DNA from: Athalassotoga saccharophila
GTDB lineage: Bacteria; Thermotogota; Thermotogae; Mesoaciditogales; Mesoaciditogaceae
NCBI RefSeq assembly: GCF_009936215.1
Contig: NZ_AP019551.1
Location: forward strand, 124,001 to 188,000
Reading direction: 5' to 3'
Length of the DNA stretch: 64,000 nucleotides
Positions 24,098 through 41,658 of this stretch are shown here, in pieces. The notes under the pieces were generated by a model. That model saw nothing but the letters and a program-made list of their open reading frames with translations. It was not told the DNA's origin and ran no database searches. Made by a program: the position numbers and the translations under genes. Numbering within the stretch: the first letter of the stretch is position 1; the number at the start of each line of letters is the position of its first letter.

Positions 24098-24130
24098 TTG
24101 AAGATAAATTAGTTTATTGCTACAATAAAT
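24098..24130 (+). promoter_or_regulatory. Promoter of the uronate/xylan operon with operator palindrome
   Basis: -35 TTGAAG (24098-24103), a 17-base spacer and -10 TACAAT (24121-24126). The -10 lies inside a perfect inverted repeat TTTATTG-CTA-CAATAAA (24113-24129). The same repeat, with one central base changed, overlaps the -10 of the promoter at 37534-37561 in the same island. A repressor bound here would block polymerase. The ROK protein encoded at 45340 is the natural candidate. Confidence 0.7.
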
Positions 24131-24156
24131 TATGTACCATTTTCATTTACGGAATC

Positions 24157-24792
24157 ATGAATAAGGGGATGAAAATTATCGAAATTAAAAATAAGATCAA
24201 GGGAAAGATAATAGCAGTAATAAGGGCAAACACCCCCGAGATGGCCGAAGAAATGGCCGAAACGGTTTTAAAAAACGGAATAGAGATCGTCGAAATAACC
24301 TTTACAGTTAACGGAGCAGTCGAAGTCATTAAAAATTTGAGAAAAAATTTTCCTGATTTTGTGATCGGTGCCGGTACTGTTACACGGTTAGATGAGGCCA
24401 GATCCGCTCTGAAGGCAGGAGCGCAGTTCATCGTCTCGCCCTGCGTTATCGAAGAAGTCGGAGAATTTTGCAAGACAGAAAATATCTTTTGCTCTTTGGG
24501 TGCACAGACGCCGACAGAAGTTTACAAAGCATACCTTCATGGCGGAGATATCGTCAAATTATTCCCGGGAGAACTTTTTAATCCATCGATTATAAAAATA
24601 CTTCACGGCCCATTTCCTTACATAGATTTTATGCCCACAGGCGGGATAAACAAGGAAAACGCAAAAACATGGCTTGACAGCGGCGCATTCGCACTTGGTG
24701 TCGGAGGATACCTCACAGGCGGCATTGGCATGGGGAATCTTGACTTGCTTGGTGTGAGAGTCAGAGAACTTTTAGAAAGCGTCAAAGGTTGA
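24157..24792 (+). CDS. eda: 2-keto-3-deoxy-6-phosphogluconate (KDPG/KHG) aldolase
   Basis: This cytosolic aldolase splits KDPG to pyruvate and glyceraldehyde 3-phosphate, the last step of hexuronate breakdown. Conserved parts include 'IVEITFTV' (catalytic Glu), 'GAGTVTRLDEAR', 'FIVSPC' and 'VKLFPGELFNP' with the Schiff-base Lys; 'MPTGGIN' binds phosphate. At about 210 residues it is full length. ATG 24157 or ATG 24169 may be the start; the AAGGGG is too close to the second. The transcript start predicted from the promoter is near 24133. Confidence 0.93.
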   Translation: MNKGMKIIEIKNKIKGKIIAVIRANTPEMAEEMAETVLKNGIEIVEITFTVNGAVEVIKNLRKNFPDFVIGAGTVTRLDEARSALKAGAQFIVSPCVIEEVGEFCKTENIFCSLGAQTPTEVYKAYLHGGDIVKLFPGELFNPSIIKILHGPFPYIDFMPTGGINKENAKTWLDSGAFALGVGGYLTGGIGMGNLDLLGVRVRELLESVKG

Positions 24793-24796
24793 GTAT

Positions 24797-25732
24797 ATGG
24801 CAGACGTTGTAACTTTTGGAGAGCCGATGGTGCTTTTGGCAGGAGACAGAGACAAAATCTACGATTCAAATCATTTCACAAAATACATCGCAGGGTCCGA
24901 ACTTAACGTTTCCGTAGGACTTGCAAGGCTCGGACATGACGTGATTTACGCTACCAAACTCGGTGAAGATCCATTTGGAAGATACATATACGATTTTATC
25001 AAAAAAGAGGGTATAAATCCCTCTTACATCAAATTTGATTCTTCCAATCTTACTGGCCTTATGTTCAAAAGCAAAAAAGAAAATGGTGATCCCGAGATCT
25101 TTTATTTCAGAAAGCACTCGGCAGCCTCATTCATGGATCAAAAAGATCTTGAGTTTGTAAAGTTATTGAATCCAAAATTCATTCACCTTACAGGTATAAC
25201 CCTTGGGCTATCAACGAACACACGAAATGCTTTTAATTTTCTTTTGAAGATTGCAAAGGGGAAAAATGTACCCGTCATCTTCGATCCAAATTTGCGTCCT
25301 CAACTTTGGAAAGACAAAGATGAAATGGCAAAGATTATAAATGATGCAGCCTTCTCAAGCGATATTTTTTTGCCCGGCTTAAAAGAGGCCGAGATTCTGA
25401 CAGGACTTTTAGATCCAAAAATGATAGGTCATTTCTACATTGAAAAGGGAGTAAAAATCGTTATTATCAAAATGGGAGAGAAAGGCGCATTTGTAATTTC
25501 AAAAGATGAATCTTACGACGTTCCCGCTTTTCACGTTAAGGTCGTTGACACGGTCGGAGCCGGAGATGGATTTGATGTCGGAATAATAAGTGGCCTTTTG
25601 GATGGCATCTCACTTAGAGAAGCAATTGTGAGGGCTAATGCAATAGGTGCGATGCAGGTTATGACGCCCGGAGACAACGACGGATTACCTAATCGTGCAA
25701 AGCTTGAAGAATTTCTGAGAGGTGCAAGATGA
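24797..25732 (+). CDS. kdgK: 2-keto-3-deoxygluconate kinase (PfkB family)
   Basis: KdgK phosphorylates KDG to KDPG, feeding the aldolase encoded just before it. The 311-residue ribokinase-fold protein has 'AGSELNVSVGLARLG' near the start and 'DTVGAGDGFDVGIISG' near 252-267 with the catalytic Asp. 'FDPNLRPQLW' in the middle is typical of KDG kinases. Four bases separate it from eda and its TGA overlaps the ATG of uxuA. Confidence 0.93.
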   Translation: MADVVTFGEPMVLLAGDRDKIYDSNHFTKYIAGSELNVSVGLARLGHDVIYATKLGEDPFGRYIYDFIKKEGINPSYIKFDSSNLTGLMFKSKKENGDPEIFYFRKHSAASFMDQKDLEFVKLLNPKFIHLTGITLGLSTNTRNAFNFLLKIAKGKNVPVIFDPNLRPQLWKDKDEMAKIINDAAFSSDIFLPGLKEAEILTGLLDPKMIGHFYIEKGVKIVIIKMGEKGAFVISKDESYDVPAFHVKVVDTVGAGDGFDVGIISGLLDGISLREAIVRANAIGAMQVMTPGDNDGLPNRAKLEEFLRGAR

Positions 25733-26799
25733 AAATTGTATTTAGATGGTTTGGATCCGACGATAGAATAACACTTGACCAGATAAAACAAATTCCCGGA
25801 ATATACGGTGTGGTAAGTGCTATCTACGATGTGCCGGTAGGAGAAGTGTGGCCTTTTGATAAGATAAAGAGATTAAAGAAACAGATAGAAAATTCTGGGC
25901 TGAAATTTGAAGTAGTTGAGAGCGTTAACGTTCATGAAGACATAAAACTTGGCCTTCCTTCAAGGGACAGATACATCCAAAATTACAAAACCACGATAGA
26001 AAATTTGAGTAAAATCGGAATAAAGGTCGTATGTTACAACTTCATGCCTGTCTTTGATTGGACAAGAACAGATCTGAATTTCAAACTTGAGGATGGCTCA
26101 AATGTACTCTTTTACGATGACGATAAAATAAAAAATTTAGACCCCGCCAGACTCGTTGAAGAGATGGAAAAGCATAGCGGTGGATTCTCTTTGCCCGGAT
26201 GGGAACCATACAGACTAAAGGATTTGAAAAAACTGTTTGATCTGTACAAAGATATGACCGAAGAAAGACTTTTTAAAAATCTCAAATATTTCCTTGAACA
26301 GATAATTCCTACGTGCGAAAAATGTGATGTAAATATGGCAATTCATCCGGACGATCCACCGTGGTCAGTTTTTGGTCTTCCAAGGATAGTAAAAAATTAC
26401 GATGACCTTAAAAGAATAACGGATGCCGTCAAAAGCAAGTACAACGGCATTACATTGTGTACAGGCTCGCTTGGTACAAATCCCAAAAATGATCTTGTCA
26501 GGATGATAAAAGATTTCAAAGAAAGAATCCATTTCGTACATGCAAGAAATGTGAAAATCCTGTCCGAAAAGAAATTTCACGAAACTGCGCATCTTTCTTC
26601 GTCTGGATCGATAGACCTTTTTAAAATAATGAAATCTTTGCATGAAATAAATTTCGATGGATATATCCGTCCGGATCACGGAAGAATGATATGGAACGAA
26701 ACTGGAAGGCCAGGTTATGGACTTTACGACAGAGCACTTGGTATAGCGTATATCAACGGATTGAATGAGGCGATAGAAAAAGGATGTGATACGAATTGA
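25729..26799 (+). CDS. uxuA: Mannonate dehydratase
   Basis: UxuA dehydrates D-mannonate to KDG in the glucuronate pathway. The opening 'FRWFGSDDRITLDQIKQIPG' and 'VGEVWPFDKI' are diagnostic. 'IHPDDPPWSVFGLPRI', 'FVHARNVK' and 'YIRPDHGRMIW' contain the metal ligands and catalytic residues. The 356-residue length is normal. ATGA overlap with kdgK and TTGA overlap with the following reductase show one translation unit. The substrate chain in this island starts from glucuronic acid released by the GH67 enzyme. Confidence 0.96.
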   Translation: MKIVFRWFGSDDRITLDQIKQIPGIYGVVSAIYDVPVGEVWPFDKIKRLKKQIENSGLKFEVVESVNVHEDIKLGLPSRDRYIQNYKTTIENLSKIGIKVVCYNFMPVFDWTRTDLNFKLEDGSNVLFYDDDKIKNLDPARLVEEMEKHSGGFSLPGWEPYRLKDLKKLFDLYKDMTEERLFKNLKYFLEQIIPTCEKCDVNMAIHPDDPPWSVFGLPRIVKNYDDLKRITDAVKSKYNGITLCTGSLGTNPKNDLVRMIKDFKERIHFVHARNVKILSEKKFHETAHLSSSGSIDLFKIMKSLHEINFDGYIRPDHGRMIWNETGRPGYGLYDRALGIAYINGLNEAIEKGCDTN

Positions 26800-27626
26800 A
26801 GACAAACTTAAAAGATAAGATTGCAGTAATAACAGGTGGAGGAGGAGTCATAGGATCGGTCTTTTCGAAGGCTCTTGCGGTCGAAGGAGTAAAGGTTGCT
26901 ATCCTGAACAGAACACTTGAAAAAGCACAAAAAGTAGCGGATGAAATAAACAAAGATGGCGGGACGGCCATCGCGATAAAGTGCGATGTGTTGAATGAGA
27001 GAGAAGTCATAGATGCGAAAGATAAAGTTTTGGAAATTTACAAAGGATGCGATATTCTGATCAATTGCGCAGGTGGAAATAACCCAAAGGCTATAACGTC
27101 GAAAGAATTTTTTGAAATTTCGGATATCGGTAAAACAACCTTTTTTGATTTTGACATGAAGGATTTTGAATCTGTCTTAAATCTCAATTTCATGGGCACT
27201 GTTATACCTATAAAAATCTTCACAAAAGAGATGGCAAATAGAAAAGGCGCAACGATTGTCAATATTTCCTCGATGAGCGCTTACGTTCCTATGACGAAAG
27301 TGCCGGCATACAGCGCGGCAAAGGCAGCGATAAATAACTTTACCCAATGGCTCGCCGTCTATTTGGCCAATGTCGGAATAAGGGTAAATGCCATGGCTCC
27401 AGGATTTCTCTTAACCGAACAGAATAGAGATCTGCTCACAAATAAAGACGGAACACCTACTGAAAGATTGAAGAAGGTTATTGCAAATACTCCCATGCGA
27501 CGACTTGGAGACCCACAAGAACTCGTCGGAACGTTGATATGGCTTTGTGATGAAAATTTGTCAGGTTTCGTTACGGGTATAACTGTGCCTGTAGATGGAG
27601 GTTTTATGGCTTATTCAGGAGTTTGA
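26796..27626 (+). CDS. SDR-family fructuronate reductase (mannonate oxidoreductase, YjmF-like)
   Basis: The 276-residue short-chain dehydrogenase has the nucleotide-binding 'TGGGGVIGSVFSKALA', 'NCAGGN', and the catalytic Ser-Tyr-Lys in 'NISSMSAYVPM' and 'PAYSAAKAA'. Between uxuA and the xylanase it most likely reduces fructuronate to mannonate, as the unrelated UxuB does in T. maritima and as the SDR YjmF does in Bacillus. The pathway order supports this, but SDR specificity cannot be read from motifs. It starts with TTG overlapping uxuA. Confidence 0.82.
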   Translation: MKTNLKDKIAVITGGGGVIGSVFSKALAVEGVKVAILNRTLEKAQKVADEINKDGGTAIAIKCDVLNEREVIDAKDKVLEIYKGCDILINCAGGNNPKAITSKEFFEISDIGKTTFFDFDMKDFESVLNLNFMGTVIPIKIFTKEMANRKGATIVNISSMSAYVPMTKVPAYSAAKAAINNFTQWLAVYLANVGIRVNAMAPGFLLTEQNRDLLTNKDGTPTERLKKVIANTPMRRLGDPQELVGTLIWLCDENLSGFVTGITVPVDGGFMAYSGV

Positions 27627-27638
27627 GGAGGTGGTAAT

Positions 27639-30296
27639 GTGGGTAAGATCAGGAAATTGATCGTTGTGAGTGTAAGTCTATTACTTGCAATGATGGTATT
27701 AGGTATGACTGGAAATGTCATTGTCAATTCTTCCTTCGAAAGCGGCAGTACATGGGGCTGGTCTCCATTCGGAAGTGCAACGCTGATCGCAACTTCAACG
27801 AATCCCCACAGTGGCGAATATTGCCTTTACACGGCGGGCAGAACGCAGAGTTGGATGGGGCCGAGTTATAACCTTTTTGGGTTGATCTCACCGGGAGAAA
27901 CTTACAAAATCGATTTCTGGGTGAGGTATGACGAGGGGCCTCAATCGGCACAATTCAAAGCGACAGTCAAAACATCTTCGAATAACGGTGCGTCTGACTA
28001 CATTCAGGCAACGAATCCAACTTCTGTCCAGAAAAATGTATGGACAGAAATATCAGGAGAGTTTTCTATCCCGAACGGAGATTATTCAGGCATCGTCGTG
28101 TACATTGAATCTCCTGGTTCGACGCCGAGTTTTTATCTCGACGATTTTACGATTACAGGAGAAATTTCACAATCAAGTCAAAATATTCTCAACAATCAAA
28201 GAACACAATTTGAAGTCGCAACAACACCTGTAAGCGAGTATTTAAAATCGATCCCTTCTTTGTATGAAAGCCTTTCCAAATATTTCCCAGTAGGGGTTGC
28301 CGTAGAACCATCACAACTTTTGCCATCAAACCCGCACTCGCAGATTGTCGCGAAGGAATTCAACATGCTTGTTCCAGAAAATGTCATGAAACCGGAATTC
28401 ATCGAACCGAAGCCGGGAGATTTTACCTTTGAGAACGCGGATGCCATAGTTGATTACGCGATATCCCATAACATGACGATGCGCGGGCACAATTTTATAT
28501 GGTATCAGGAGACTCCAAACTGGTTTTTCGAAGATCCATCCAACCCTTCGAAGCCCGCTTCAAGGACGCTTTTGCTCGAGCGCATGAAAGCACTTATCAC
28601 AACGACGATGAAGCATTTCGAAGACAAATATGGATCGAAAAATCCAATCAAATACTGGGACATAGTGAATGAACCCCTCAACGACAACGGGACTCTAAGA
28701 GAAACACCGTGGCTAAAGATAATAGGACCGGATTATATCGCAAAGGCTTTCGAATATGCGCATGAAGCGGATCCGAACATAAAACTTTTCGTCAACGATT
28801 ACGGACTTGAAAATGACGGTGTAAAGGCACAGGCCATGTACGAACTTGTTAAAAAACTAAAAGATGAAGGAGTTCCGATAGACGGTATAGGCATAGAATG
28901 CCATATAAACATAAACACTAATTTAGACAAACTCAAAGATGTCATACAAAAATTCGCATCTTTGGGGGTTGAAGTTCAATTCACCGAAATAGACATGTCG
29001 ACGCTCGGCGATACTTCCAAGTCAGCCCTTTTGCAACAGGCAAGACAGTACAGAAAACTTTTTACCATCCTTGAAGAAGAACATAAATACATAACGGCCG
29101 TCGTATTCTGGGGTATCTCCGATGATGTTTCATGGCTCGGATCTCAAAACGCACCTTTACTCTTTAACACTTCTCTCCAGCCGAAGCCCGCATTTTGGGC
29201 TATCGTGGATCCTCAAAAGGCACCCATGAATATAGTGAATACGCAAATTCTGAATACTCCCGAAGGAACTCCATCAAGCACGGACTGGTCAAAATCTCTC
29301 GACTTCAAGATACAGCCATTTACAAATGTCGATACTTTTATCAAAGGTGTTGGAGCAACAGCAAAGATCAAAACTTTGTGGAATAAAGATGCTCTCTACA
29401 TACTTGCGAATGTATCGGATACGACGCCATCGTCGAGAGACAACGTCGAATTCTTCATTGGAAACAGATCTTACAGATTCTTCAGAGGAAACTTCATCGG
29501 CAGAAATGCAGAAGAAACAAATTATGCAACCGGGTATGACATACAGTTGACACTTCCTTTAGATGAAATCGGCTTAAATGGGAAGATTGGAAATCACATT
29601 GGATTCGATGTAAGGGTTAACGACTATGACAATTCGAGTTTAAAGTCTGTCACAGCATGGAATGATTACGCAAATGATAAAGAAGATCCGGCACACTACG
29701 GTCAGTTAATGCTTTCAGAAAAATCGCAGGTATCCTATTCCATTTACGGGACTCCGGCGGGAATATCCGATCCGTTATGGAATGAAGCGCAGGTCATAAA
29801 AGTTGATAAATTCATCAAAGGCGACTCCGGAGCCACAGCAACGGTCAGAACTTTGTGGGATAACAGGTACCTTTACGTACTTGCAAATGTATGGGAAAAG
29901 GATTTGAACGCTTCAAATTTACTTCCTTACAGACAGGATTCCGTTGAAATTTTTGTCGATCGGCACAATTACAAAACGTCTTATTACACAGACGGAGACG
30001 GCCAGTACAGAGTGAATTTCGAAAATGCCCAGAGCTTTGGACCGAGTACGGATTCTTCTGGATTTGAATCCTTTGCAACCAAAACGGCAACAGGCTACAT
30101 TGTGGAGATGAAGATACCTTTGAAAATAATACCCAAAGTCGGAGACGTGATAGGCTTCGATGCATTAATCAACGTTGCCGGTCCGGGAAATGACAGCCCG
30201 AGAAAGGCAATCATCATCTGGTCGGGATACGCGAACACGCTTTACGAAGAGACACAAAGTTTTGGAAATTTAATGCTTGTAAAGCAATTACCTTAA
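27639..30296 (+). CDS. Secreted modular endo-1,4-beta-xylanase (CBM22-GH10-CBM9-CBM9)
   Basis: The 885-residue protein begins with a signal peptide (about 1-25). Residues 27-180 are a CBM4/9/22-type binding module. Residues about 209-520 are the GH10 barrel, with the acid/base Glu345 in 'WDIVNEPL' and the nucleophile Glu450 in 'VQFTEIDM'. Two CBM9-like modules follow (about 530-690 and 697-885). T. maritima XynA has two N-terminal CBM22 modules; here only one is present. No SLH or sortase anchor is seen. It starts at GTG 27639 with GAGGAGGTGG just ahead. It would cut xylan outside the cell and feed the binding proteins encoded downstream. Confidence 0.95.
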   Translation: MGKIRKLIVVSVSLLLAMMVLGMTGNVIVNSSFESGSTWGWSPFGSATLIATSTNPHSGEYCLYTAGRTQSWMGPSYNLFGLISPGETYKIDFWVRYDEGPQSAQFKATVKTSSNNGASDYIQATNPTSVQKNVWTEISGEFSIPNGDYSGIVVYIESPGSTPSFYLDDFTITGEISQSSQNILNNQRTQFEVATTPVSEYLKSIPSLYESLSKYFPVGVAVEPSQLLPSNPHSQIVAKEFNMLVPENVMKPEFIEPKPGDFTFENADAIVDYAISHNMTMRGHNFIWYQETPNWFFEDPSNPSKPASRTLLLERMKALITTTMKHFEDKYGSKNPIKYWDIVNEPLNDNGTLRETPWLKIIGPDYIAKAFEYAHEADPNIKLFVNDYGLENDGVKAQAMYELVKKLKDEGVPIDGIGIECHININTNLDKLKDVIQKFASLGVEVQFTEIDMSTLGDTSKSALLQQARQYRKLFTILEEEHKYITAVVFWGISDDVSWLGSQNAPLLFNTSLQPKPAFWAIVDPQKAPMNIVNTQILNTPEGTPSSTDWSKSLDFKIQPFTNVDTFIKGVGATAKIKTLWNKDALYILANVSDTTPSSRDNVEFFIGNRSYRFFRGNFIGRNAEETNYATGYDIQLTLPLDEIGLNGKIGNHIGFDVRVNDYDNSSLKSVTAWNDYANDKEDPAHYGQLMLSEKSQVSYSIYGTPAGISDPLWNEAQVIKVDKFIKGDSGATATVRTLWDNRYLYVLANVWEKDLNASNLLPYRQDSVEIFVDRHNYKTSYYTDGDGQYRVNFENAQSFGPSTDSSGFESFATKTATGYIVEMKIPLKIIPKVGDVIGFDALINVAGPGNDSPRKAIIIWSGYANTLYEETQSFGNLMLVKQLP

Positions 30297-30312
30297 ATAA
30301 GGAGGTCATTTT

Positions 30313-32013
30313 ATGAAGTTCAAATTTTTAATCCTCATGGTAGCCTTGATAGGCATCTTGAGTATCGGCTTTGCGGATGTTTCTTATCCGTATCTTACCC
30401 AGTACGGCCCTGCGATTGTCAACTGGGGAAGTAACGTAAAATACGGAGGAACACTGAAAATAATACTCGCCTATGGTCCTCTTCAGTACAGCCTTAATCC
30501 GTTTACGGGAAGTGGATCTACCTTACCAACAAATTTAATTTACGAGTCGTTATTCTATATTGACATGAGCGGAAAAATAACGAACTTTCTCGGCACATCC
30601 TATAAATGGATGAACAACAACACAGAATTGGATGTCACAATCCGCCAGGGTGTCAAATGGTCAGACGGAGTCCCATTCACACCACAGGATGTGGTCTTCA
30701 CATTCAATTATCTAAAGGCCAATCCCGCAATAGATTTGAATGGTATCTGGGCACCTTCGAATGACCTTGTCAGTGTAACGGCAAGTGGAGATACAGTTAT
30801 CTTCAAACTTTCTAAGCCTAACATGTCGATCTTCCAATATATTGCCGGAGAACCAATAGTACCCGAACATATATGGGCAAATATTTCAGATCCTTCCAAA
30901 TACACAAATCAAAATCCTGTGGGGACAGGGCCATTCCTTTTCAAGAGTTTTGATCAGCCAACGAATACGGTAACGTATATCAAGAATCCTAATTATTGGA
31001 TGGAAGGAAGACCGTATATTGACAGCATAGTTTACACTTCTGTTGATTCCAACAATGCATGTACTCTTTCACTTATAAGACATGAATATGACATATCCAA
31101 CCTTTACATTCCAGACGTTATGAAAACCTACGTTTCACACGATCCAGCAAATAACAAATATTGGTGGCCGGTTGTTGGAAACAATTATCTCGATTTGAAT
31201 ACCACAAAGTATCCATTCAATATCCCAGATTTCAGAAAGGCTATTTCCATAGCGATAAATAGAAAATTTGTTTTAGACAGTTTGTATTTTGGCACTTTTG
31301 AAGAATTCGATAATCCAACTCTCATAACCTATCCGCTTCGCTCATGGCTTGATCCAACTTTGACACCACTTGCTTCATCGCTTGTTGAATATAATCCGCA
31401 GAAGGCTCAAGAATTACTCGCATCAATAGGATTCAAGAAAAATGATCAAGGATTGTTAGTAGGACCGGATGGAAAAGTGCTACCATCGTTTACACTTAAT
31501 GTAGTTTCAGGATGGACTGACTGGATACAGGGAGCACAAATAGTAGCCAAAGAACTTGGATCAATAGGACTGCAGGTCAATGTGTCCCAACAATCATTTG
31601 GACAATATTACTCTTCTTTGCAAACAGGGACATTTGATATGGCGATAACATGGCTCGATCCGGGAACAAATCCTTATAACGCATATTATTTTGCTTTTAG
31701 TCCAAATCAGACTGCACCAATAGGTCAAAATGCCGCTTCTAACTTTTCAAGATATACAAATCCACTCATAACAGATGCTCTTGATGTTTTCAATTCAACA
31801 TCTGATCCGAGAATACAAAGACAGGCTATATATGCAATAGAAAGAATAGTCCTTGACGATATGCCATCAATTGCTCTGCTACCAGTTCCAATGTGGGACG
31901 TTTATCAAACAACAACTTTGACAGGTTTCCCAAACGATCAATATCCTTATTATCTTGCAGGATCTGTACAGGTAAATCTTGAGATACCGGCATTGAATAT
32001 CCATCTTAAATAA
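30313..32013 (+). CDS. ABC transporter substrate-binding protein 1 (SBP_bac_5 family, oligosaccharide/oligopeptide type)
   Basis: The 566-residue exported protein has a signal peptide ('ALIGILSIGFADV', cleavage after about residue 21) with no lipobox Cys. The family 5 fold is clear: 'YGGTLKII', 'GVKWSDGVPFTPQDVVFTF', and 'NPVGTGPFLFKSF'. In Thermotogota such Dpp/Opp-like proteins often bind sugar oligomers. The xylan context here points to xylo-oligosaccharides. It is one of three close paralogues in the island and shares a 243-base identical block with the second. No permease or ATPase gene is nearby. A hairpin follows its stop. Confidence 0.92.
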   Translation: MKFKFLILMVALIGILSIGFADVSYPYLTQYGPAIVNWGSNVKYGGTLKIILAYGPLQYSLNPFTGSGSTLPTNLIYESLFYIDMSGKITNFLGTSYKWMNNNTELDVTIRQGVKWSDGVPFTPQDVVFTFNYLKANPAIDLNGIWAPSNDLVSVTASGDTVIFKLSKPNMSIFQYIAGEPIVPEHIWANISDPSKYTNQNPVGTGPFLFKSFDQPTNTVTYIKNPNYWMEGRPYIDSIVYTSVDSNNACTLSLIRHEYDISNLYIPDVMKTYVSHDPANNKYWWPVVGNNYLDLNTTKYPFNIPDFRKAISIAINRKFVLDSLYFGTFEEFDNPTLITYPLRSWLDPTLTPLASSLVEYNPQKAQELLASIGFKKNDQGLLVGPDGKVLPSFTLNVVSGWTDWIQGAQIVAKELGSIGLQVNVSQQSFGQYYSSLQTGTFDMAITWLDPGTNPYNAYYFAFSPNQTAPIGQNAASNFSRYTNPLITDALDVFNSTSDPRIQRQAIYAIERIVLDDMPSIALLPVPMWDVYQTTTLTGFPNDQYPYYLAGSVQVNLEIPALNIHLK

Positions 32014-32015
32014 TT

Positions 32016-32040
32016 AAGAGGGGGCACTAACCCCTCTTTT
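32016..32040 (+). terminator. Hairpin after substrate-binding protein 1
   Basis: AAGAGGGG-loop-CCCCTCTT (32016-32038) follows the stop codon, with TTAT behind and the ribosome site of the next gene about 10 bases on. It is likely a partial terminator or a 3'-end stabiliser that raises the binding protein over downstream enzymes. Two similar hairpins follow the other binding-protein genes. Confidence 0.6.
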
Positions 32041-32053
32041 ATGGAGGAAAAGA

Positions 32054-33010
32054 GTGGAGATAGGAAATACTTTTATATGTTCGATAAAAGACGATAAAAA
32101 AGCGATAATTACCTTTACTTTTGATGATGCACTTTATAAGCCCGCCATATTCTTTAGTTCTGAACTTTCAAAAAGAGGCCTAAAAGGCACATTTGCAATA
32201 ACAACAAACTTCGTTCGTGACTCTAATGGGAATGATGTCAACGGCACCTGGGAACAGTGGATAAATTTGATAAATGCCTCTAAATTCGATGTGGCAAATC
32301 ATTCCAAAAGCCATTTAGATCTGACCAAATTAACACCTGAAGAACTTGAAGAAGAGATAAATCACGCGAGAAAGATTTTGATCTCAAAATTCAAAGGGCA
32401 AAAAGTCTTGTGCATGGTAAATCCTTTTAACGCAACGAATGATGTCGTTGACAAAAAAATTTCTGAATTTCATTATGCGGCAAGAAATGGAATTGAAGGA
32501 TACAATTCTATCTCTCCACCAGATAAAGAATGGCTAAGGCTAAACTATAAAGGGATTTATCACGACACCTCTGCCACTGAAATGAAAAAATGGATAGATG
32601 AGTCTATAAAGAATAATCTATGGCTTATAGAGATGATTCACGGAGTAAATGGCATAGGATGGGAAGCAGCTCCAGATAATGTCTTTCGGGATCATTTTGA
32701 CTATGTATCAAGTAAAAAAGAAGAAATCTGGAATGCAACCTTTGAAGAGGCAACTATGTACATCAGAGAAGTTCAGAGCACATCTATAAATCTCAAAATC
32801 GAAGATCGGAAAGTAAATGTAAAATTGAAAAATAATCTACAACCTTATTTTGATTACCCTTTGACTTTAAAAACCATCGTTCCAAATGAAGATATAAAAT
32901 TAACCTCAAATGGAAGGTATATACCTTTTAACATTAAAAGGGAAGAAAACAGGATCTTTGTGTATTACGAAGCAATTCCAAAACGTGATGATATTTCAAT
33001 TTTGTTTTAG
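32054..33010 (+). CDS. Polysaccharide deacetylase-like protein (CE4/NodB domain)
   Basis: The 318-residue protein has a NodB-like domain (about 17-235): the metal and catalytic Asp pair in 'TFTFDDALY' (Asp24/25) and 'NHSKSHLDL' (His83, His87). Other CE4 motifs are weak ('MVNPFNATN', 'IEMIHGVNG'). A small beta-rich C-terminal part (about 240-318) is not recognised. It has no signal peptide, so it would act in the cytosol. That fits removal of acetyl groups from imported xylo-oligomers. The start is GTG 32054 with GGAGG ahead. The specific substrate is inferred from context. Confidence 0.78.
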   Translation: MEIGNTFICSIKDDKKAIITFTFDDALYKPAIFFSSELSKRGLKGTFAITTNFVRDSNGNDVNGTWEQWINLINASKFDVANHSKSHLDLTKLTPEELEEEINHARKILISKFKGQKVLCMVNPFNATNDVVDKKISEFHYAARNGIEGYNSISPPDKEWLRLNYKGIYHDTSATEMKKWIDESIKNNLWLIEMIHGVNGIGWEAAPDNVFRDHFDYVSSKKEEIWNATFEEATMYIREVQSTSINLKIEDRKVNVKLKNNLQPYFDYPLTLKTIVPNEDIKLTSNGRYIPFNIKREENRIFVYYEAIPKRDDISILF

Positions 33011-33025
33011 AAAGGAGTGAAGTTT

Positions 33026-34723
33026 ATGAAGTTCAAATTTTTAATCTTCATGATAGCCTTAATAGGCATCTTGAGTATCGGCTTTGCGGATGTTTCTTAT
33101 CCGTATCTTACCCAGTACGGCCCTGCGATTGTCAACTGGGGCCCAAATGTAAAGTATGGAGGAACACTGAATTGGCTTTATGGTGCCAACATTACAATTA
33201 CTCAAAATTTCAACCCATTCATTAAAGGGAATTTGCCTGTATCTTTGATCTATGAGCCATTATTCTACGTTGATATGAGCGGAAAAATAACGAACTTTCT
33301 CGGCACATCCTATAAATGGATGAACAACAACACAGAATTGGATGTCACAATCCGCCAGGGTGTCAAATGGTCAGACGGAGTCCCATTCACACCACAGGAT
33401 GTGGTCTTCACATTCAATTATCTAAAGGCCAATCCCGCAATAGATTTGAATGGTATCTGGGCACCTTCGAATGACCTTGTCAGTGTAACGGCAAGTGGAG
33501 ATACAGTTATCTTCAAATTTTCACGTCCGAATATACCATTTTTCAATATAATTGCCGGAGAACCAATAGTACCCGAACATATATGGGCAAATATTTCAGA
33601 TCCTTCCAAATACACAAATCCAAATCCTGTGGGGACAGGACCATTTGTTTTGAAAGATTTTAACGCTGCTATTGGAACTGTGATCTTTACAAAGAACCCA
33701 AATTACTGGATGACTGGAAGGCCTTACATCGATCAAATTAAGTGGCAAGTTTTGACATCTAACACAACCGGACTTATGGCCTTTTTGAGGCATGATTTTG
33801 ATATAGGCTTAGGTTATGTTCCCAATGTGAAAGAGGTTTACGTTAACAAAGATCCTGAAGTCAACAAATATTGGTGGCCAGTCGTCGGGAACAATGCTTT
33901 GTATCTCAACGATGCCAAATATCCATTCAATATTCCTGACTTTAGGAAAGCAATATCGATGAGCTTAAACAGATCTTACATTTTAGATCACTTATATTTT
34001 GGAGATTTTCAAAATTACGATAATCCAACTCTCATAACCTATCCACTTCGTTCATGGCTTGATCCCACTTTGACAGAACTTGCTTCTTCACTTATCACTT
34101 ACAATCCCCAAAAGGCCCAAGAACTACTTGCATCGATAGGATTCAAGAAAAATGATCAGGGCCTTTTGACAGATCCAAACGGGAAAGTGCTTCCAACATA
34201 TACGTTAACGGTGGTCGCCGGGTGGCCAGATTGGATACAAGGAGCACAAATAGTTTCTGAAGAGTTAAAAGCAATAGGACTTCAAGTGATTGTCAATCAA
34301 GAATCTTACGGGCAATATTATTCTTCCTTGCAAACTGGAAATTTTGACATGGCAATTTCTTGGCTTGATGTAGGACCAACACCTTATAACGCATATTATT
34401 ACGCTTTCAGTCAGACACAGACGGCACCGATAGGTCAGGTTGCATCTACGAATTTTTCAAGATACACTAATCCTTTAATAACGAGTGCCTTACAGATATT
34501 TAGCACTACAACAGATCCAACTCTTCAAAGGCAAGCAATATACACAATAGAGCGCATTGTCCTTGATGATATGCCGATGATCGCACTTTTACCAGTCCCG
34601 ATGTGGGATACTTACACAACTTACAGATTTACAGGTTTCCCCGATGATCAATATCCTTACTACATTCAGGGAAGTCTTTCCACGGACGAAGAGATTGTCG
34701 CTTTAAATGTCCATTTGAAATGA
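33026..34723 (+). CDS. ABC transporter substrate-binding protein 2 (SBP_bac_5 family)
   Basis: It is a 565-residue paralogue of the protein encoded at 30313 with the same signal peptide and opening ('SYPYLTQYGPAIVNWG'). Bases 33275-33517 are identical to 30565-30807, and 33551-33620 to 30841-30910, while the flanks have diverged, which points to recent gene conversion. The ligand-facing middle (about residues 215-300) is clearly different from paralogues 1 and 3. I prefer ATG 33026 with AAGGAG eight bases ahead over an in-frame GTG at 33017. A palindromic hairpin follows the stop. Confidence 0.92.
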   Translation: MKFKFLIFMIALIGILSIGFADVSYPYLTQYGPAIVNWGPNVKYGGTLNWLYGANITITQNFNPFIKGNLPVSLIYEPLFYVDMSGKITNFLGTSYKWMNNNTELDVTIRQGVKWSDGVPFTPQDVVFTFNYLKANPAIDLNGIWAPSNDLVSVTASGDTVIFKFSRPNIPFFNIIAGEPIVPEHIWANISDPSKYTNPNPVGTGPFVLKDFNAAIGTVIFTKNPNYWMTGRPYIDQIKWQVLTSNTTGLMAFLRHDFDIGLGYVPNVKEVYVNKDPEVNKYWWPVVGNNALYLNDAKYPFNIPDFRKAISMSLNRSYILDHLYFGDFQNYDNPTLITYPLRSWLDPTLTELASSLITYNPQKAQELLASIGFKKNDQGLLTDPNGKVLPTYTLTVVAGWPDWIQGAQIVSEELKAIGLQVIVNQESYGQYYSSLQTGNFDMAISWLDVGPTPYNAYYYAFSQTQTAPIGQVASTNFSRYTNPLITSALQIFSTTTDPTLQRQAIYTIERIVLDDMPMIALLPVPMWDTYTTYRFTGFPDDQYPYYIQGSLSTDEEIVALNVHLK

Positions 34724-34727
34724 TAAA

Positions 34728-34753
34728 ATGGGGAAGGGAATTCCCTTCCCCAT
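34728..34753 (+). terminator. Hairpin after substrate-binding protein 2
   Basis: A 26-base perfect palindrome of ATGGGGAAGGGAA and its complement lies four bases past the stop. No T-run follows, so it may be more a 3'-end protecting structure than a full terminator. It separates the binding-protein gene from the esterase gene. Confidence 0.6.
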
Positions 34754-34775
34754 ATCTTTGAATGGAGGATACATC

Positions 34776-35411
34776 ATGTTAAAAAATGGAGATGTTGTTT
34801 TGTTTCAAGGTGACAGCATAACGGACTACATGAGAAAAAGAGAGGATCCAGATGATCTTGGAAATGGATACCCATTTTTTGTGTCTGCTCTGTGGAGCAT
34901 AGAACACCCTGACATGAATGTCAAATTTTTGAACAGGGGCGTAAGTGGAGACAGGGTTAGAGATTTGAAAAGCAGATGGATCAAAGATTGTATTGAACTC
35001 AAGCCCACCGTGGTCTCAATTTTGATAGGGATAAATGACACGTGGAGAAGATTTGACAGTGATGATCCAACATCTGTTGAAGATTTTGAAAGGGATTACA
35101 GATTCATCCTTGACAAGGTTAAGGAGATCGGATCTAAAATCGTAATTCTTGAGCCATATTTAGTTGAGTCTGTTAAAAGTGAAAGAACTCCCAACAAAGA
35201 AGCGTGGAGGATTGATCTCGATCCCAAAATTCACGTTGTAAGGAAAGTCGCGCTTGAATACAAAGCCATCTTTATTCCCCTTGATGGGATAATGACCGGA
35301 TATTGTTCTTCAAAAGATCCGTTATTTTGGTCATACGACGGTGTCCATCCAACAGTTAACGGTAGCGTTTTGATCGCAAAGAAATGGATTGAATACGTCG
35401 AACGTTTTTGA
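34776..35411 (+). CDS. SGNH-hydrolase acetylxylan esterase (Axe2-like)
   Basis: The 211-residue protein carries the SGNH blocks: nucleophile Ser14 in 'FQGDSITDYM', Gly in 'RGVSGDRVRDLKSRW', Asn in 'IGINDTWR', and the Asp188-x2-His191 pair in 'SYDGVHPT'. The pattern and length closely follow Geobacillus Axe2, an intracellular esterase that deacetylates xylo-oligosaccharides. It has no signal peptide. I chose ATG 34776 because GGAGG precedes it. An upstream in-frame ATG at 34728 lies inside the hairpin and is rejected. The next gene, GH67, works on the same oligomers. Confidence 0.9.
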   Translation: MLKNGDVVLFQGDSITDYMRKREDPDDLGNGYPFFVSALWSIEHPDMNVKFLNRGVSGDRVRDLKSRWIKDCIELKPTVVSILIGINDTWRRFDSDDPTSVEDFERDYRFILDKVKEIGSKIVILEPYLVESVKSERTPNKEAWRIDLDPKIHVVRKVALEYKAIFIPLDGIMTGYCSSKDPLFWSYDGVHPTVNGSVLIAKKWIEYVERF

Positions 35412-35421
35412 GGAGTAAAAA

Positions 35422-37464
35422 ATGGAGATCGAGAATGGTTATAAATGCTGGTTAAGGTACAAAAATGTCGAAGATCAAAGCGTACTTTCTTCTTACAGGC
35501 CATTTTGCCGGAATATTACCGTTACGAAGACATCTGATATCATTAACTACGCTTTAGATGAACTTATTGACGGTATTTCCTCTATGTGTTCGATTGTTCC
35601 GACTGTTACAGATGAATTCGTCGAGGAAGCAGGATTGGTCATTGGGACTGACAGATCAAAGATCATCGATATAGTCGGTAAAGAGGCTTTTGAATCACTT
35701 GATAGGGAAGGTTACATGATCAAGACAGTTAAATCGAAAATAGCGATCGCCGGCAAGAGTGATCTTGGAATCTTATACGGCGTATTTCATTTTTTAAGAA
35801 TTTTGCAATCCGAAAAGTCTATAACCAATCTTGATATCTTTGAAAATCCGCAAAACAAAATTCGCATGATAGATCACTGGGACAATTTGGATGGAACGAT
35901 AGAGAGAGGATACGCGGGAAATTCTATCTTTTACAAAGACAACAAAGTCTCATTCGATCAAAGACGAATAAAGGATTACGCAAGACTTTTGTCCTCCATT
36001 GGCATAAATGCGATCTCTTTGAACAATGTCAACGTTCGTGAGAATGAGATGAGACTAATAACGAAAACATATCTTACGGATGTGGCAAAAATAGCCGATA
36101 TTTTTAGAAATTATGGAATAAAGATATTTTTAAGCGTTAATTTTGCAAGTCCAACTTACGTCGGAAAACTTCTTACCTCCGATCCTTTGGATTTTTCAGT
36201 CAAAGATTGGTGGAAGGGAAAGGTAAGAGAAATATACGAATATATTCCAGACTTCGGAGGTTTTATCGTAAAGGCCGACTCGGAATACACCTCTGGTCCA
36301 TTTGCCTACGGCAGAACTCACGCAGACGGCGCCAACACGATTGCACAGGCACTCGGACAGTTTGGAAGTCTTTTGATATGGCGCGCATTTGTCTATAAAA
36401 TGCAGGATTGGCGCGACAGAAAAACAGACAGGGCAAAGGCCGCTTACGAATTTTTCAAACCTCTCGATGGAAAATTTCTCGACAACGTCATTCTCCAGAT
36501 AAAGAACGGACCTATGGATTTTCAAGTAAGAGAACCTGTGTCTCCTTTGTTCGGTGCCATGGAGAGTACAAATCAAATGCTTGAATTGCAGATAACCCAA
36601 GAGTATACCGGCCACCAGATAGATCTTTGCTATCTTGTGCCTCAATGGAAGGAGGTATTTGACTTCGACACTTACGCGGCCGGAAGAGGATCAAAGGTTT
36701 CAAATGTGGTAAGTGGAAAAACTTTCAAAAGACCCTACGGCGGGGTCGCCGGAGTTTCAAATGTTGGAGACGATCCAAACTGGACGGGTCATCCTCTCGC
36801 CCAGGCAAATCTTTACGGATTTGGGAGACTTGCGTGGAATCCGAACCTTTCATCCGAAGATATAACAAATGAATGGACTAAACTTACTTTCGGAAACAAT
36901 CCGGAAGTTGTCAAAACGATCTCTGAAATGCTTTTGTCATCGTGGAGAATTTACGAAAGTTATACGTCTCCGCTCGGAGTCGGATGGATGGTAAATCCGG
37001 GCATACATTACGGCCCAAATGTCGATGGGTACGAATATTCAAAATGGGGCACATACCATTACGCAGATCATGAAGGCATCGGAGTGGACAGGACAAAAGC
37101 GACAGGAACAGATTTTATCAGCCAGTACAGACCTCAAGTGGCCGAAATTTACGAATCTCTCGAAAAATGTCCCGATGAACTTTTGCTTTTTTTCCACCAT
37201 GTGCCATACACCCACAGGTTGAAATCCGGTAAAACAATTATCCAGCATATCTACGATTCCCACTTTGACGGAGTCGAAAAGGTTATCGAAATGAAGGAAA
37301 AGTGGATTGGTTTAAAGGATCATGTTGACCAAATCATTTTTAATGAAGTGCTTGAAAGATTTGAACTTCAACTTAAGAATGCAATAGAATGGTGTGACGT
37401 CATCAACTCCTATTTTTGGAGAAAATCAGGAATTAAAGACGAATTTGGAAGAAAAATCTATTAA
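35422..37464 (+). CDS. aguA: Alpha-glucuronidase, GH67
   Basis: This cytosolic enzyme removes (4-O-methyl-)glucuronic acid from the non-reducing end of aldouronic xylo-oligosaccharides. The 680-residue protein aligns by its motifs through the full length: '[19 protein letters not shown]', '[13 protein letters not shown]' with the acid Glu288, '[11 protein letters not shown]', and '[20 protein letters not shown]'. No signal peptide. The released glucuronate would enter the eda-kdgK-uxuA route at the start of the island. Confidence 0.96.
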
Positions 37465-37533
37465 AATCTTACCTGTTTCTCTTTATCTCATTTGATTTCA
37501 TGAATACTTGAAATAACGATATCTTTTGTTATT

Positions 37534-37565
37534 TTGATTTTAGATAGTTTATTGATACAATAAAT
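37534..37565 (+). promoter_or_regulatory. Internal promoter with the same operator palindrome
   Basis: -35 TTGATT (37534-37539), a 16-base spacer and -10 TACAAT (37556-37561). TTTATTG-ATA-CAATAAA (37548-37564) overlaps the -10, matching the element at 24113-24129 except at one central base. It would drive the third binding-protein gene and the genes behind it under the same control as the head of the island. Confidence 0.7.
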
Positions 37566-37596
37566 TGGTGCAATTTCAAAATAAGGAGGGAGTTAC

Positions 37597-39300
37597 ATGG
37601 GTAAAGTTAAGTTTTTTGTCCTGCTCATAGCCTTAATAGGCATAATGAGCATCGGATTTGCAGACGTTTCATATCCGTACCTAACTCAGTACGGACCGGC
37701 AATCGTCAACTGGGGAAGTAACGTCAAATACGGGGGAACTCTTAAGATAATCCTTCCAAACGGTCCTCTCCAGTATAGCCTTAACCCATTCATGGGAAAC
37801 AACTCGACACTTCCGACATCCTTCATCTACGAATCACTCTTTTTCATAAACCTTACAGGTGACGTTACTAACATGCTCGGCACATCATACAAATGGACAG
37901 ACAACAACACAGAATTGGATGTCACAATCCGCCAGGGTGTCAAATGGTCAGACGGAGTTCCATTTACACCACAGGATGTGGTCTTCACATTCAATTATCT
38001 AAAGGCCAATCCGAGTATAGACCTTAACGGTATATGGTCATCTGCGAATGATCTTGTCAGTGTAACGGCGAGTGGAGATACAGTCATCTTCAAACTTTCA
38101 CAACCCAACATGGCGCTCTTCCAGTATTTGGTTGGAGAGCCAATAATACCCGAGCATATATGGGCAAATATTTCAGATCCTGCCAAATACACAAACCCGA
38201 ATCCAGTCGGTACCGGTCCATTCCTCTTCAAGAGTTTTGACCAGCCTGCGAACACAGTTACGTACGTGAAGAATCCGAATTACTGGATGACCGGCAGGCC
38301 ATATCTCGACAGTGTGGTAGTTACATCCGTCAACTCGAACGATACATGCACACTCGCGCTCATAAAACACGAATATGACATGTCAAACCTCTACATACCC
38401 GGAGTTGAACAGACTTACATCTCGAAAGACCCGTCTAACAACAAGATATGGTGGCCGATACTCGGGAACAATCATTTGATATTCAACGATGCGAAATACC
38501 CATTCAACATACCGGACTTCAGGAAAGCGATCTCGATGGCGATAAACAGGAACTTCATACTGACAAGTCTGTACGGGCCGCAATTCTCACAGTACAACAA
38601 TCCGACACTGATAACCTATCCGCTTCGTTCATGGTTAGATCCGACCCTGACATCTTTGGCATCCTCGTTAGTTGCGTACAATCCGAAGGCGGCGCAGGAT
38701 TTGCTGGCATCGATAGGGTTTAAGAAGAACGCGCAGGGTCTATTGACCGGTCCGGATGGGAAGGTACTGCCGACATTCACACTGAGCGTTGTTACTGGAT
38801 GGACAGACTGGGTGCAGGCAGAGGCGATAATAGCGCAGGAATTAAAAGAGATAGGGCTTCAGGTTAACCCGGTCCAGCAATCCTTTGGTCAGTATTATTC
38901 GTCCTTACAGACAGGGACATTTGACATGTCGATAACATGGCTTAACCTTGGGATAAATCCATACACTCCATATTACTTTGCATTCAGTCCGACACAGACG
39001 GCACCGATAGGGCAGGTGGCATCTTCTAACTTCTCAAGATACACGAATCCTTTGATAACAGATGCGTTGCAGGTATTCAACACGACATCTGACCAGAGAT
39101 TGCAAAGGCAGGCGATATACACGATAGAGAGGATAGTGTTAGACGATCTGCCAGTTGCTGCGCTTCTGCCAGTTCCGATGTGGGACGTGTACCAGACGAG
39201 CACGCTTGCGGGATTCCCGGATGACCAATATCCTTACTACATGGTAGGGTCTATTCAGGTTGCTCCGGAAATACTCGCCTTGAATATACACCTGAAATGA
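37597..39300 (+). CDS. ABC transporter substrate-binding protein 3 (SBP_bac_5 family)
   Basis: A 567-residue paralogue of the two binding proteins upstream, with its own regulated promoter and an AAGGAGGG site. Signal peptide and core motifs are the same. It shares a ~58-base identical run (about 37901-37958) with the others, but its second half uses many more G/C-ending codons (gcg, ctg, ccg, aag), unlike the AT-rich wobble of copies 1 and 2. That may reflect high expression or a different history. A terminator-like hairpin follows. Confidence 0.92.
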   Translation: MGKVKFFVLLIALIGIMSIGFADVSYPYLTQYGPAIVNWGSNVKYGGTLKIILPNGPLQYSLNPFMGNNSTLPTSFIYESLFFINLTGDVTNMLGTSYKWTDNNTELDVTIRQGVKWSDGVPFTPQDVVFTFNYLKANPSIDLNGIWSSANDLVSVTASGDTVIFKLSQPNMALFQYLVGEPIIPEHIWANISDPAKYTNPNPVGTGPFLFKSFDQPANTVTYVKNPNYWMTGRPYLDSVVVTSVNSNDTCTLALIKHEYDMSNLYIPGVEQTYISKDPSNNKIWWPILGNNHLIFNDAKYPFNIPDFRKAISMAINRNFILTSLYGPQFSQYNNPTLITYPLRSWLDPTLTSLASSLVAYNPKAAQDLLASIGFKKNAQGLLTGPDGKVLPTFTLSVVTGWTDWVQAEAIIAQELKEIGLQVNPVQQSFGQYYSSLQTGTFDMSITWLNLGINPYTPYYFAFSPTQTAPIGQVASSNFSRYTNPLITDALQVFNTTSDQRLQRQAIYTIERIVLDDLPVAALLPVPMWDVYQTSTLAGFPDDQYPYYMVGSIQVAPEILALNIHLK

Positions 39301-39306
39301 ATCGAT

Positions 39307-39330
39307 GGGGGGGTCCTCCCCCCAATTTTT
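39307..39330 (+). terminator. Hairpin after substrate-binding protein 3
   Basis: GGGGGG-TCCT-CCCCCC followed by AATTTTT lies seven bases behind the stop. It looks like an intrinsic terminator, though the GH31 gene starts 15 bases later without a new promoter I can see, so read-through is expected. Confidence 0.7.
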
Positions 39331-39345
39331 AAACGAGGTGTTTCG

Positions 39346-41658
39346 ATGAAATTCACAGATGGAAACTGGCTTGTAAAAAAGGGAATTTCGATATACGGAT
39401 CTTCACAGGTTGTCGATGTCAAAAATTCAGATAAAGAGATCTTTGTCTATGTCACAACATTTCATGTCAGAAACAGGGGGGACACTCTCGGTGGCCCGAT
39501 GATAACTTTAAGGATATCTTCACCGGTCGAAGATGTTATCCGAATTCAGGCTTATCATTTTAAAGGTAACATACACCATGGACCTGATTTTTTTATCAAA
39601 GATGACAATTTAAAAGTTCATTTTGATGAAAACAACGAATTTATAACTGTAAAAAGCGGCGATTCATCTTTGAAGATAAACAAGAATGATTTTCAGATGG
39701 ATTTCATCCATAAAGAGAGGCACTTGACTAAAAGCGGTTATAAAAGCCTTGCTTATATAACCTCTGAAAGCGGAGAAAGATTCATGAGAGAACAACTTGA
39801 TCTCGACGTTGGTGAATACGTCTATGGGCTGGGAGAAAGATTTACCAACTTCGTAAAAAACGGACAGGTTATCGATATGTGGAATGCCGATGCCGGCACA
39901 AACAGCGAACAATCTTACAAGAATATCCCATTCTACCTTACGAATAAAAAGTATGGAGTCTTTGTTAACAATCCGGGTATGATATCCTACGAAATAGCAT
40001 CCGAGAGAGTTTCAAAAGTTCAATTCAGTGTTAACGGAGAAAGTATTGATTATCTGCTAATTGTCGGAGAATCGATAAAGGAAGTTTTGGAAAAATACAC
40101 ATACCTTACAGGTAAGCCCGCATTGCCGCCGGCATGGTCCTTTGGATTGTGGCTGACAACCTCTTTCACAACTGATTACAATGAAGAGACTGCAACAAAA
40201 TTCGTGGACGGAATGTTAGAAAGAGATATTCCCCTTAAGGTTTTTCACTTTGATTGTTTTTGGATGAAAGAGTTTCAATGGACAGATCTCGAATGGGACA
40301 GGAATCAATTTCGAGATCCCGAAGGAATGTTAAAAAGGTTTAAGGATAAGGGATTAAAAATAAGTGTTTGGATAAACCCCTACATAGCACAGAAGTCAAA
40401 GTTATTCGATGAAGCAATGCAAAATGGCTATCTGTTGAAAAGTCCAAATGGCAGTGTATGGCAGTCGGACATGTGGCAGCCCGGGATGGGCATAATCGAC
40501 TTCACAAATCCAGACGCTAAAAAATGGTTTTCAGAAAAGTTGAAGGAATTGATCGAAATGGGAGTTGACTGTTTTAAAACAGATTTCGGTGAAAGAATTC
40601 CAACAGATGTCGTGTATTACGATAATTCAGATCCCGAAAGAATGCATAATTACTACACTTACCTTTACAATAAAACGGTTTTTGAAGCGACAAAAGAGAA
40701 GAAAGGTGAAGACGCGTTAGTTTTCGCAAGATCGGCGACGGCCGGAAGCCAGAAATTCCCGGTCCACTGGGGAGGAGATTGTTCAGCGACTTACGAATCG
40801 ATGGCCGAAAGTTTGCGCGGAGGATTGTCTTTAGGGCTTTGCGGTTTTGGTTTCTGGAGTCACGATATAGCAGGCTTTGAAAGCAGATCAACGCCCGATC
40901 TTTACAAAAGATGGACGGCTTTTGGATTACTCTCTTCCCATAGTAGGCTTCACGGAAACAACGCTTACAAGGTGCCATGGCTTTACGATGAAGAATCAGT
41001 CGATGTTTTAAGATTTTTTTCAAAGTTAAAAAACAAGTTGATGCCTTACATCTATTCCAAGGCCGTTGAAGCGTCAAGAAAAGGGATTCCTGTAATGAGG
41101 CCGATGATGGTCGAATTCGATGATCCTACCTGTCTTTTCCTTGATAAACAGTACATGATCGGAGATGCCTTGCTTGTTGCGCCGATCTTTTCAGAAGATG
41201 GTACGGTAACCTATTATTTGCCCAAAGGAAGATGGATGAATTTTATAACCAAAGAGATAATTGACGGCGGAAGATGGAAGAATGAAAAACATGGATACAT
41301 GAGCCTTCCTTTGATGATGAGGGAAAATACGATAATCGCAACGGGCAATGTTGATTCGAGACCTGATTACGATTATGCAGACAACGTTACATTCCATCTT
41401 TTCGGAATAAATGAAACTTTCTCCGAGATTTACGACACGAATGGAAATCTCGAGACTCAAATAAAAGCAAAGAGAAAAGGTCAATTAATGGATATAGAGG
41501 TAAAGAAGAAAAATGAAGATAAAAAATGGAATATCCTAATCTACGAAAAAGTAAGATCTGTAATCAACGGAGATTTGAAAAAAGAAGATTTTGGATACAG
41601 GATAATACCCAAGGGAGAAAATATAAAATTAGAACTGGAAGGTGAAATCAATGGGTGA
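39346..41658 (+). CDS. Alpha-xylosidase, GH31 (YicI-like)
   Basis: The 770-residue cytosolic enzyme has the GH31 barrel with nucleophile Asp413 in 'KTDFGERIPTDV' and acid/base Asp478 in 'HWGGDCSATYESMAESLRGG'; 'GFGFWSHDIAGFES' follows. These motifs are nearly those of E. coli YicI, the alpha-xylosidase group, rather than alpha-glucosidases. It would release alpha-linked xylose, for example from xyloglucan oligomers, so the island may handle more than glucuronoxylan. It overlaps the GH3 start. Confidence 0.9.
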   Translation: MKFTDGNWLVKKGISIYGSSQVVDVKNSDKEIFVYVTTFHVRNRGDTLGGPMITLRISSPVEDVIRIQAYHFKGNIHHGPDFFIKDDNLKVHFDENNEFITVKSGDSSLKINKNDFQMDFIHKERHLTKSGYKSLAYITSESGERFMREQLDLDVGEYVYGLGERFTNFVKNGQVIDMWNADAGTNSEQSYKNIPFYLTNKKYGVFVNNPGMISYEIASERVSKVQFSVNGESIDYLLIVGESIKEVLEKYTYLTGKPALPPAWSFGLWLTTSFTTDYNEETATKFVDGMLERDIPLKVFHFDCFWMKEFQWTDLEWDRNQFRDPEGMLKRFKDKGLKISVWINPYIAQKSKLFDEAMQNGYLLKSPNGSVWQSDMWQPGMGIIDFTNPDAKKWFSEKLKELIEMGVDCFKTDFGERIPTDVVYYDNSDPERMHNYYTYLYNKTVFEATKEKKGEDALVFARSATAGSQKFPVHWGGDCSATYESMAESLRGGLSLGLCGFGFWSHDIAGFESRSTPDLYKRWTAFGLLSSHSRLHGNNAYKVPWLYDEESVDVLRFFSKLKNKLMPYIYSKAVEASRKGIPVMRPMMVEFDDPTCLFLDKQYMIGDALLVAPIFSEDGTVTYYLPKGRWMNFITKEIIDGGRWKNEKHGYMSLPLMMRENTIIATGNVDSRPDYDYADNVTFHLFGINETFSEIYDTNGNLETQIKAKRKGQLMDIEVKKKNEDKKWNILIYEKVRSVINGDLKKEDFGYRIIPKGENIKLELEGEING

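Follow-up and report, generated by a model that had tools for sequence, protein, structure and literature searches.

XylR-type operators predicted before the xylose and glucuronate genes of Athalassotoga saccharophila

Two runs of genes in Athalassotoga saccharophila, a heat-loving Mesoaciditoga-type bacterium, start from promoters whose -10 boxes lie within almost the same palindrome. From sequence comparison, we consider it very likely that both palindromes serve as operators for a xylose-responsive repressor of the ROK family, XylR, whose gene lies at 45340-46524 within the second run. The regulon would be ordinary in kind, the XylR (ROK) type being already known; the new point is a XylR-type operator before glucuronate genes. 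The window that we analyzed is a stretch of 64,000 nucleotides, positions 124,001 to 188,000 of contig NZ_AP019551.1, and feature coordinates refer to it.

The two operons and the ROK protein

The tight same-strand spacing suggests that each run forms one operon and, judged by their domain content, operons 1 and 2 together constitute a glucuronoxylan and xylose pathway. Operon 1 comprises the following features.

24098-24126, + strand: promoter 1, TTGAAG at 24098-24103, 17 bp, TACAAT at 24121-24126; the -10 box is inside operator 1
24109-24133, no strand: predicted operator 1, 25 bp, in the XylR register TTAGTTTATTG-CTA-CAATAAATTAT; perfect core 24113-24129
24169-24792, + strand: eda/kdgA, KDPG aldolase, first gene of operon 1 (PF01081, TIGR01182); ATG at 24169 after AAGGGG
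24797-25732, + strand: kdgK-type PfkB sugar kinase (PF00294; best NCBIfam match KDG/KDGal kinase, below cut-off)
25729-26799, + strand: uxuA, mannonate dehydratase (PF03786, TIGR00695)
26796-27626, + strand: D-mannonate oxidoreductase, uxuB function, SDR (NF006132)
27639-30296, + strand: xyn10, GH10 xylanase with CBM4_9 and CBM9 domains (PF00331, PF02018, PF06452)
30313-32013 and 33017-34723, + strand: two SBP_bac_5 solute-binding proteins (domain matches)
32054-33010, + strand: polysaccharide deacetylase (domain match)
34728-35411, + strand: GDSL esterase (domain match)
35422-37464, + strand: GH67 alpha-glucuronidase, last gene of operon 1 (PF03648/PF07488/PF07477)

Neither uxuA nor GH67 was found in the other nine genomes of the family (ten examined, including A. 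saccharophila). A perfect 13-bp inverted repeat, ATGGGGAAGGGAATTCCCTTCCCCATA, occupies 34728-34754, and its start coincides with the first ATG of the GDSL esterase frame, where a hairpin would hide the start codon, or the true start would lie downstream.

Operon 2 follows on the same strand.

37534-37561, + strand: promoter 2, TTGATT at 37534-37539, 16 bp, TACAAT at 37556-37561; the -10 box is inside operator 2
37544-37568, no strand: predicted operator 2, ATAGTTTATTG-ATA-CAATAAATTGG; perfect core 37548-37564
37597-39300, + strand: SBP_bac_5 solute-binding protein, first gene of operon 2 (PF00496)
39346-41658, + strand: GH31 glycosidase (domain match)
41642-43960, + strand: GH3 glycosidase (domain match)
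43957-45273, + strand: xylA, xylose isomerase (TIGR02630, 690 bits)
45340-46524, + strand: ROK-family regulator, the proposed XylR, with an N-terminal winged HTH and a ROK domain (PF00480, PF13412)
46521-47978, + strand: xylB, xylulokinase (TIGR01312, 539 bits)

The binding-protein gene of operon 2 (37583-39310) has a second copy, L081 (G000:C1:4759-6488), with 99.7% DNA identity and 100% protein identity. This copy adjoins a LacI regulator and a GH16 gene and appears to have arisen recently, either by duplication or by gene conversion. The identity between the two copies stops just short of operator 2, on its downstream side, so that L081 is without the operator.

The ROK domain of the protein at 45340-46524 matches PF00480 with an E value of 2e-45, above the cut-off, and residues 15-59 match the winged HTH PF13412, the feature that separates ROK regulators from kinases. 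The protein carries the zinc motif CHCGNNGC (CHCGNNGCWEEY; ROK pattern CxCGxxGC), all positions of which are invariant in four congeners, and its best PDB relatives are the ROK regulators Lmo0178 (5f7p/q/r) and Mlc. Its best match in T. maritima is XylR (TM0110), at 37% identity over the full length; TM0110 is about equally close (36%) to another ROK protein of A. saccharophila, and the tree order is weakly supported. We have assigned the name XylR on gene context and operator type. Two further ROK genes, G000:C1:1321729 and G000:C2:39768, lie on different contigs, score equally and are almost identical in sequence; they represent another recent duplication.

The promoter palindromes and their conservation

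The earlier note had described TTTATTG-CTA-CAATAAA at 24113-24129 and TTTATTG-ATA-CAATAAA at 37548-37564, each covering a TACAAT with a -35 box 16-17 bp upstream; sequences, coordinates, overlap and spacing were all verified. The block common to both sites is wider than this 17-mer, reading TAGTTTATTG-N-TACAATAAATT over 22 bp with one variable base. Operator 1 lies about 40 bp from the ATG of eda (24169) and operator 2 about 33 bp from that of the solute-binding protein (37597). The -35-like hexamers TTGAAG and TTGATT score 9/12 each and TG precedes the -10 box in both promoters, while the promoter-like scores of the two, taken alone, are near the shuffle level.

Among the perfect 7-3-7 palindromes in the window, TTTATTG is the sole arm that occurs twice. 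A repeated 7-3-7 arm of any sequence arose in 2 of 200 Markov-1 random windows, an estimate that leaves out the placement of both copies at the two operon promoters. The very low chance claimed in the earlier note holds, with the sites less independent than it had supposed owing to their overlap with the promoter consensus. A genome-wide scan returned these two matches at one mismatch or fewer and no third in the 2.04-Mb genome (reversed control, 0). At two mismatches, the reversed control gave as many matches as the motif itself, which is therefore not scattered over unrelated genes; these two-mismatch matches (for example G000:C1:618282, 1144379 and 1203840) were not accepted as sites. Over the 33 bp that precede the shared core, promoters 1 and 2 are identical at 19 positions (p about 0.004), which suggests that promoter 1 may be derived from promoter 2.

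Counterparts of the ROK protein in three congeners (G001-G003) are 90, 68 and 67% identical, each adjoining xylA and xylB with the order xylA-ROK-xylB kept. The operator was seen in one of these three close genomes, G003, whose ROK protein is 67% identical: TTTATTGATACAATGAA stands at the same position in the promoter of the orthologous operon (binding protein, GH3, xylA, ROK, xylB), and the site as a 25-mer is ATAGTTTATTG-ATA-CAATGAATTTA. The operon start of G001 lies beyond a contig end, and G002 is without a visible site. The nearest binding-protein gene of G002, almost a duplicate of the one that opens operon 2, keeps TATACAATGAATTT and has apparently lost the left arm. This copy, L083 (G002:C39, near 2480-2527), retains the -10 box and right arm, the left arm having seemingly gone through a deletion of about 11 bp. 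The gene sits on a 4.5-kb contig with a different neighbor and so may belong to another locus; it and the xyl operon are on separate contigs (C39 and C30), the link between which was not assembled.

Relation to XylR operators and to other regulators

Two T. maritima sites, whose positions upstream of xylA and xylR are our own assignments, were used for comparison. The xylA site is a block, ATAATTGATTGATAGAAAAAATTTA, conserved with small variations before xylA in seven Thermotogota genomes of one genus, and the second is a palindrome, TTAATTATATG-CAG-GAAATAATTTA, before the xylR-like ROK gene of G085, which we take to be T. maritima MSB8. The published XylR operators of B. subtilis (TTAGTTTGTTTGGGCAACAAACTAA; PMC12034463) and Caldicellulosiruptor (TTAGTTTGTTTAATAAACAAACTAA; at xylA, TTAGTTTGTTT-AAT-AAACAAACTAA; PMC12285236) have an 11-3-11 form, a geometry that the window sites share. 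Plain identity between the window sites and the Bacillus/Caldicellulosiruptor operators is 15-18 of 25 bases, which for the Bacillus operator is not significant alone, so we used symmetric weight matrices, built from two sites each, with permutation controls. The scan covered the window (63,976 positions) and selected loci.

The comparison yielded a match to XylR: the matrix of the assigned T. maritima sites ranks operator 1 first and operator 2 fifth among the 63,976 window positions, and the Bacillus/Caldicellulosiruptor matrix ranks them first and third. When half-site positions were permuted with composition and symmetry kept, the joint p values were about 0.003 and 0.005 (range about 0.003-0.007). 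For matrices this small, the ranks point to specific recognition of XylR type, and suggest that the XylR half-site is recognizable from Firmicutes to Thermotogota. Conserved palindromes of 25-27 bp also precede the genes of other ROK regulators in the family (L027, L028, L029, L030; L031/L032; L022/L024/L025), TTTATTCTTTC-ATA-GAAAGAATAAA being one example, and are probably autoregulatory operators.

A different sugar repressor, either a LacI-family protein or another ROK paralogue, might bind both sites while the ROK protein of 45340 controls something else, and we regard this as unlikely. The genome holds six genes with a ROK domain and ten of the LacI family, but none of the LacI genes was located in the xylan island. 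A precedent exists in Caldicellulosiruptor, where xylan and uxu genes are under XynR, a LacI protein (PMC8579813), but its operators are CG-centered (PMC12285236), whereas all three sites described here, that of G003 included, have an odd 3-bp center, NTA, in place of the even palindrome with central CG of LacI-type operators. A ROK paralogue from the same genus is disfavored as the binder, since it has a distinct operator, TTTATTCTTTC-ATA-GAAAGAATAAA, that is conserved upstream of the paralogue's gene within the genus, and the matrix of that operator ranks operators 1 and 2 only 98th and 994th in the window.

Because operon 1 begins with glucuronate genes, a uronate-responsive regulator of the GntR (UxaR/UxuR type) or IclR (KdgR) family was also considered, and appears only about half as probable. 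One point in favor of a GntR regulator is the likeness of the TTG...CAA half-sites to those of FadR-type proteins in that family. UxaR (GntR) governs the kdgAK-uxuBA operon of T. maritima, where KdgR (IclR) sites also occur at two xylan loci (PMC3750489). Against this, operator 2 precedes xylose genes rather than uronate genes, and the IclR C-terminal domain PF01614 had no match in the A. saccharophila genome while positive in eight control genomes, including T. maritima. There was likewise no long candidate for an FCD-type (FadR/UxuR) protein among the four GntR matches in the genome: the longest true one is of UTRA type, beside anhydro-N-acetylmuramate kinase, one is DeoR-like, and the remaining two frames, of 141 and 156 aa, are too short for an FCD domain. 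The genome is estimated to be 91.6% complete, so a GntR or IclR gene may have been missed. For binding by another regulator, such as a GntR or LacI protein, which the earlier note named as an outcome that would overturn its reading, neither an FCD-type GntR candidate in the genome nor a LacI-like center in the sites was found.

Least probable of all is that the shared sequence is mere promoter consensus, or the leftover of a promoter duplication, with no regulator bound: the right arm is the -10 box and the upstream identity of 19/33 would allow common promoter descent, but the left arm, which a promoter does not need, is identical in both sites and in G003, and no other promoter carries the motif at one mismatch or fewer, and it matches XylR operators.

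Proposed regulation and comparison with known systems

The reading of the earlier note, that one repressor, the ROK protein at 45340, acts on both operons, is supported by the xylA-xylB context, the G003 site and the match to XylR-type matrices. We infer binding, repression and induction by xylose as follows. Without xylose, a XylR dimer would span the 3-bp center, each of its two winged helices sitting on an 11-bp half-site (NTARTTTATTG), and would cover the -10 box such that RNA polymerase could open neither promoter. Xylose freed from xylan would bind to the ROK domain, causing XylR to leave the DNA and operons 1 and 2 to be expressed together. Since xylR lies inside operon 2, XylR would also control itself. 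The six predicted sites of T. maritima XylR were validated in vitro, where the protein reacts to xylose at 0.02 mM and to glucose at higher concentration (PMC3750489). The XylR sites of Caldicellulosiruptor either fall within 5' UTRs or overlap promoter elements (PMC8579813).

We tentatively offer, as a history that is possible rather than probable, that the accessory glucuronoxylan operon (eda-kdgK-uxuA-uxuB-xyn10-GH67) joined the resident XylR control by acquiring a copied xyl promoter-operator, with UxaR/KdgR control being replaced. If so, xylose alone would turn on glucuronate catabolism in the A. saccharophila lineage. For Mesoaciditogales, an order lying deep in Thermotogota, our literature search returned no study on how xylan use is regulated; the sites provide a concrete operator for it, and the ROK protein a candidate regulator.

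The closest known system is the XylR regulon of T. maritima (TM0110), a 37% identical ROK repressor from the same phylum, which controls xylA, xylB, xylan hydrolases and xylan-oligosaccharide uptake (PMC3750489). The 25-bp half-site pattern is similar, and the T. maritima xylA site is identical to operator 2 at 19 of 25 bases; the left and right half-sites end in G or C in Thermotoga, whereas both end in G in A. saccharophila. A further difference is that T. maritima places kdgAK-uxuBA under UxaR and also has KdgR sites at two xylan loci, whereas A. saccharophila has one operator type before both xylose and glucuronate genes. XylR of Bacillus and Caldicellulosiruptor, from another phylum, shares the 11-3-11 palindrome and the TTAGTTTnTT half-site, despite the limited base identity given above, and the Bacillus repressor gene is also linked to xylA/xylB. 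XynR of C. bescii joins xylan degradation and aguX-uxuBA under one repressor, as we propose here, but is a LacI protein with a CG-centered operator and not a ROK protein (PMC8579813, PMC12285236). Glucuronate genes answer to UxaR in Thermotoga and to XynR in Caldicellulosiruptor, and the XylR-type operator of A. saccharophila would represent a third way of tying glucuronate catabolism to xylan breakdown.
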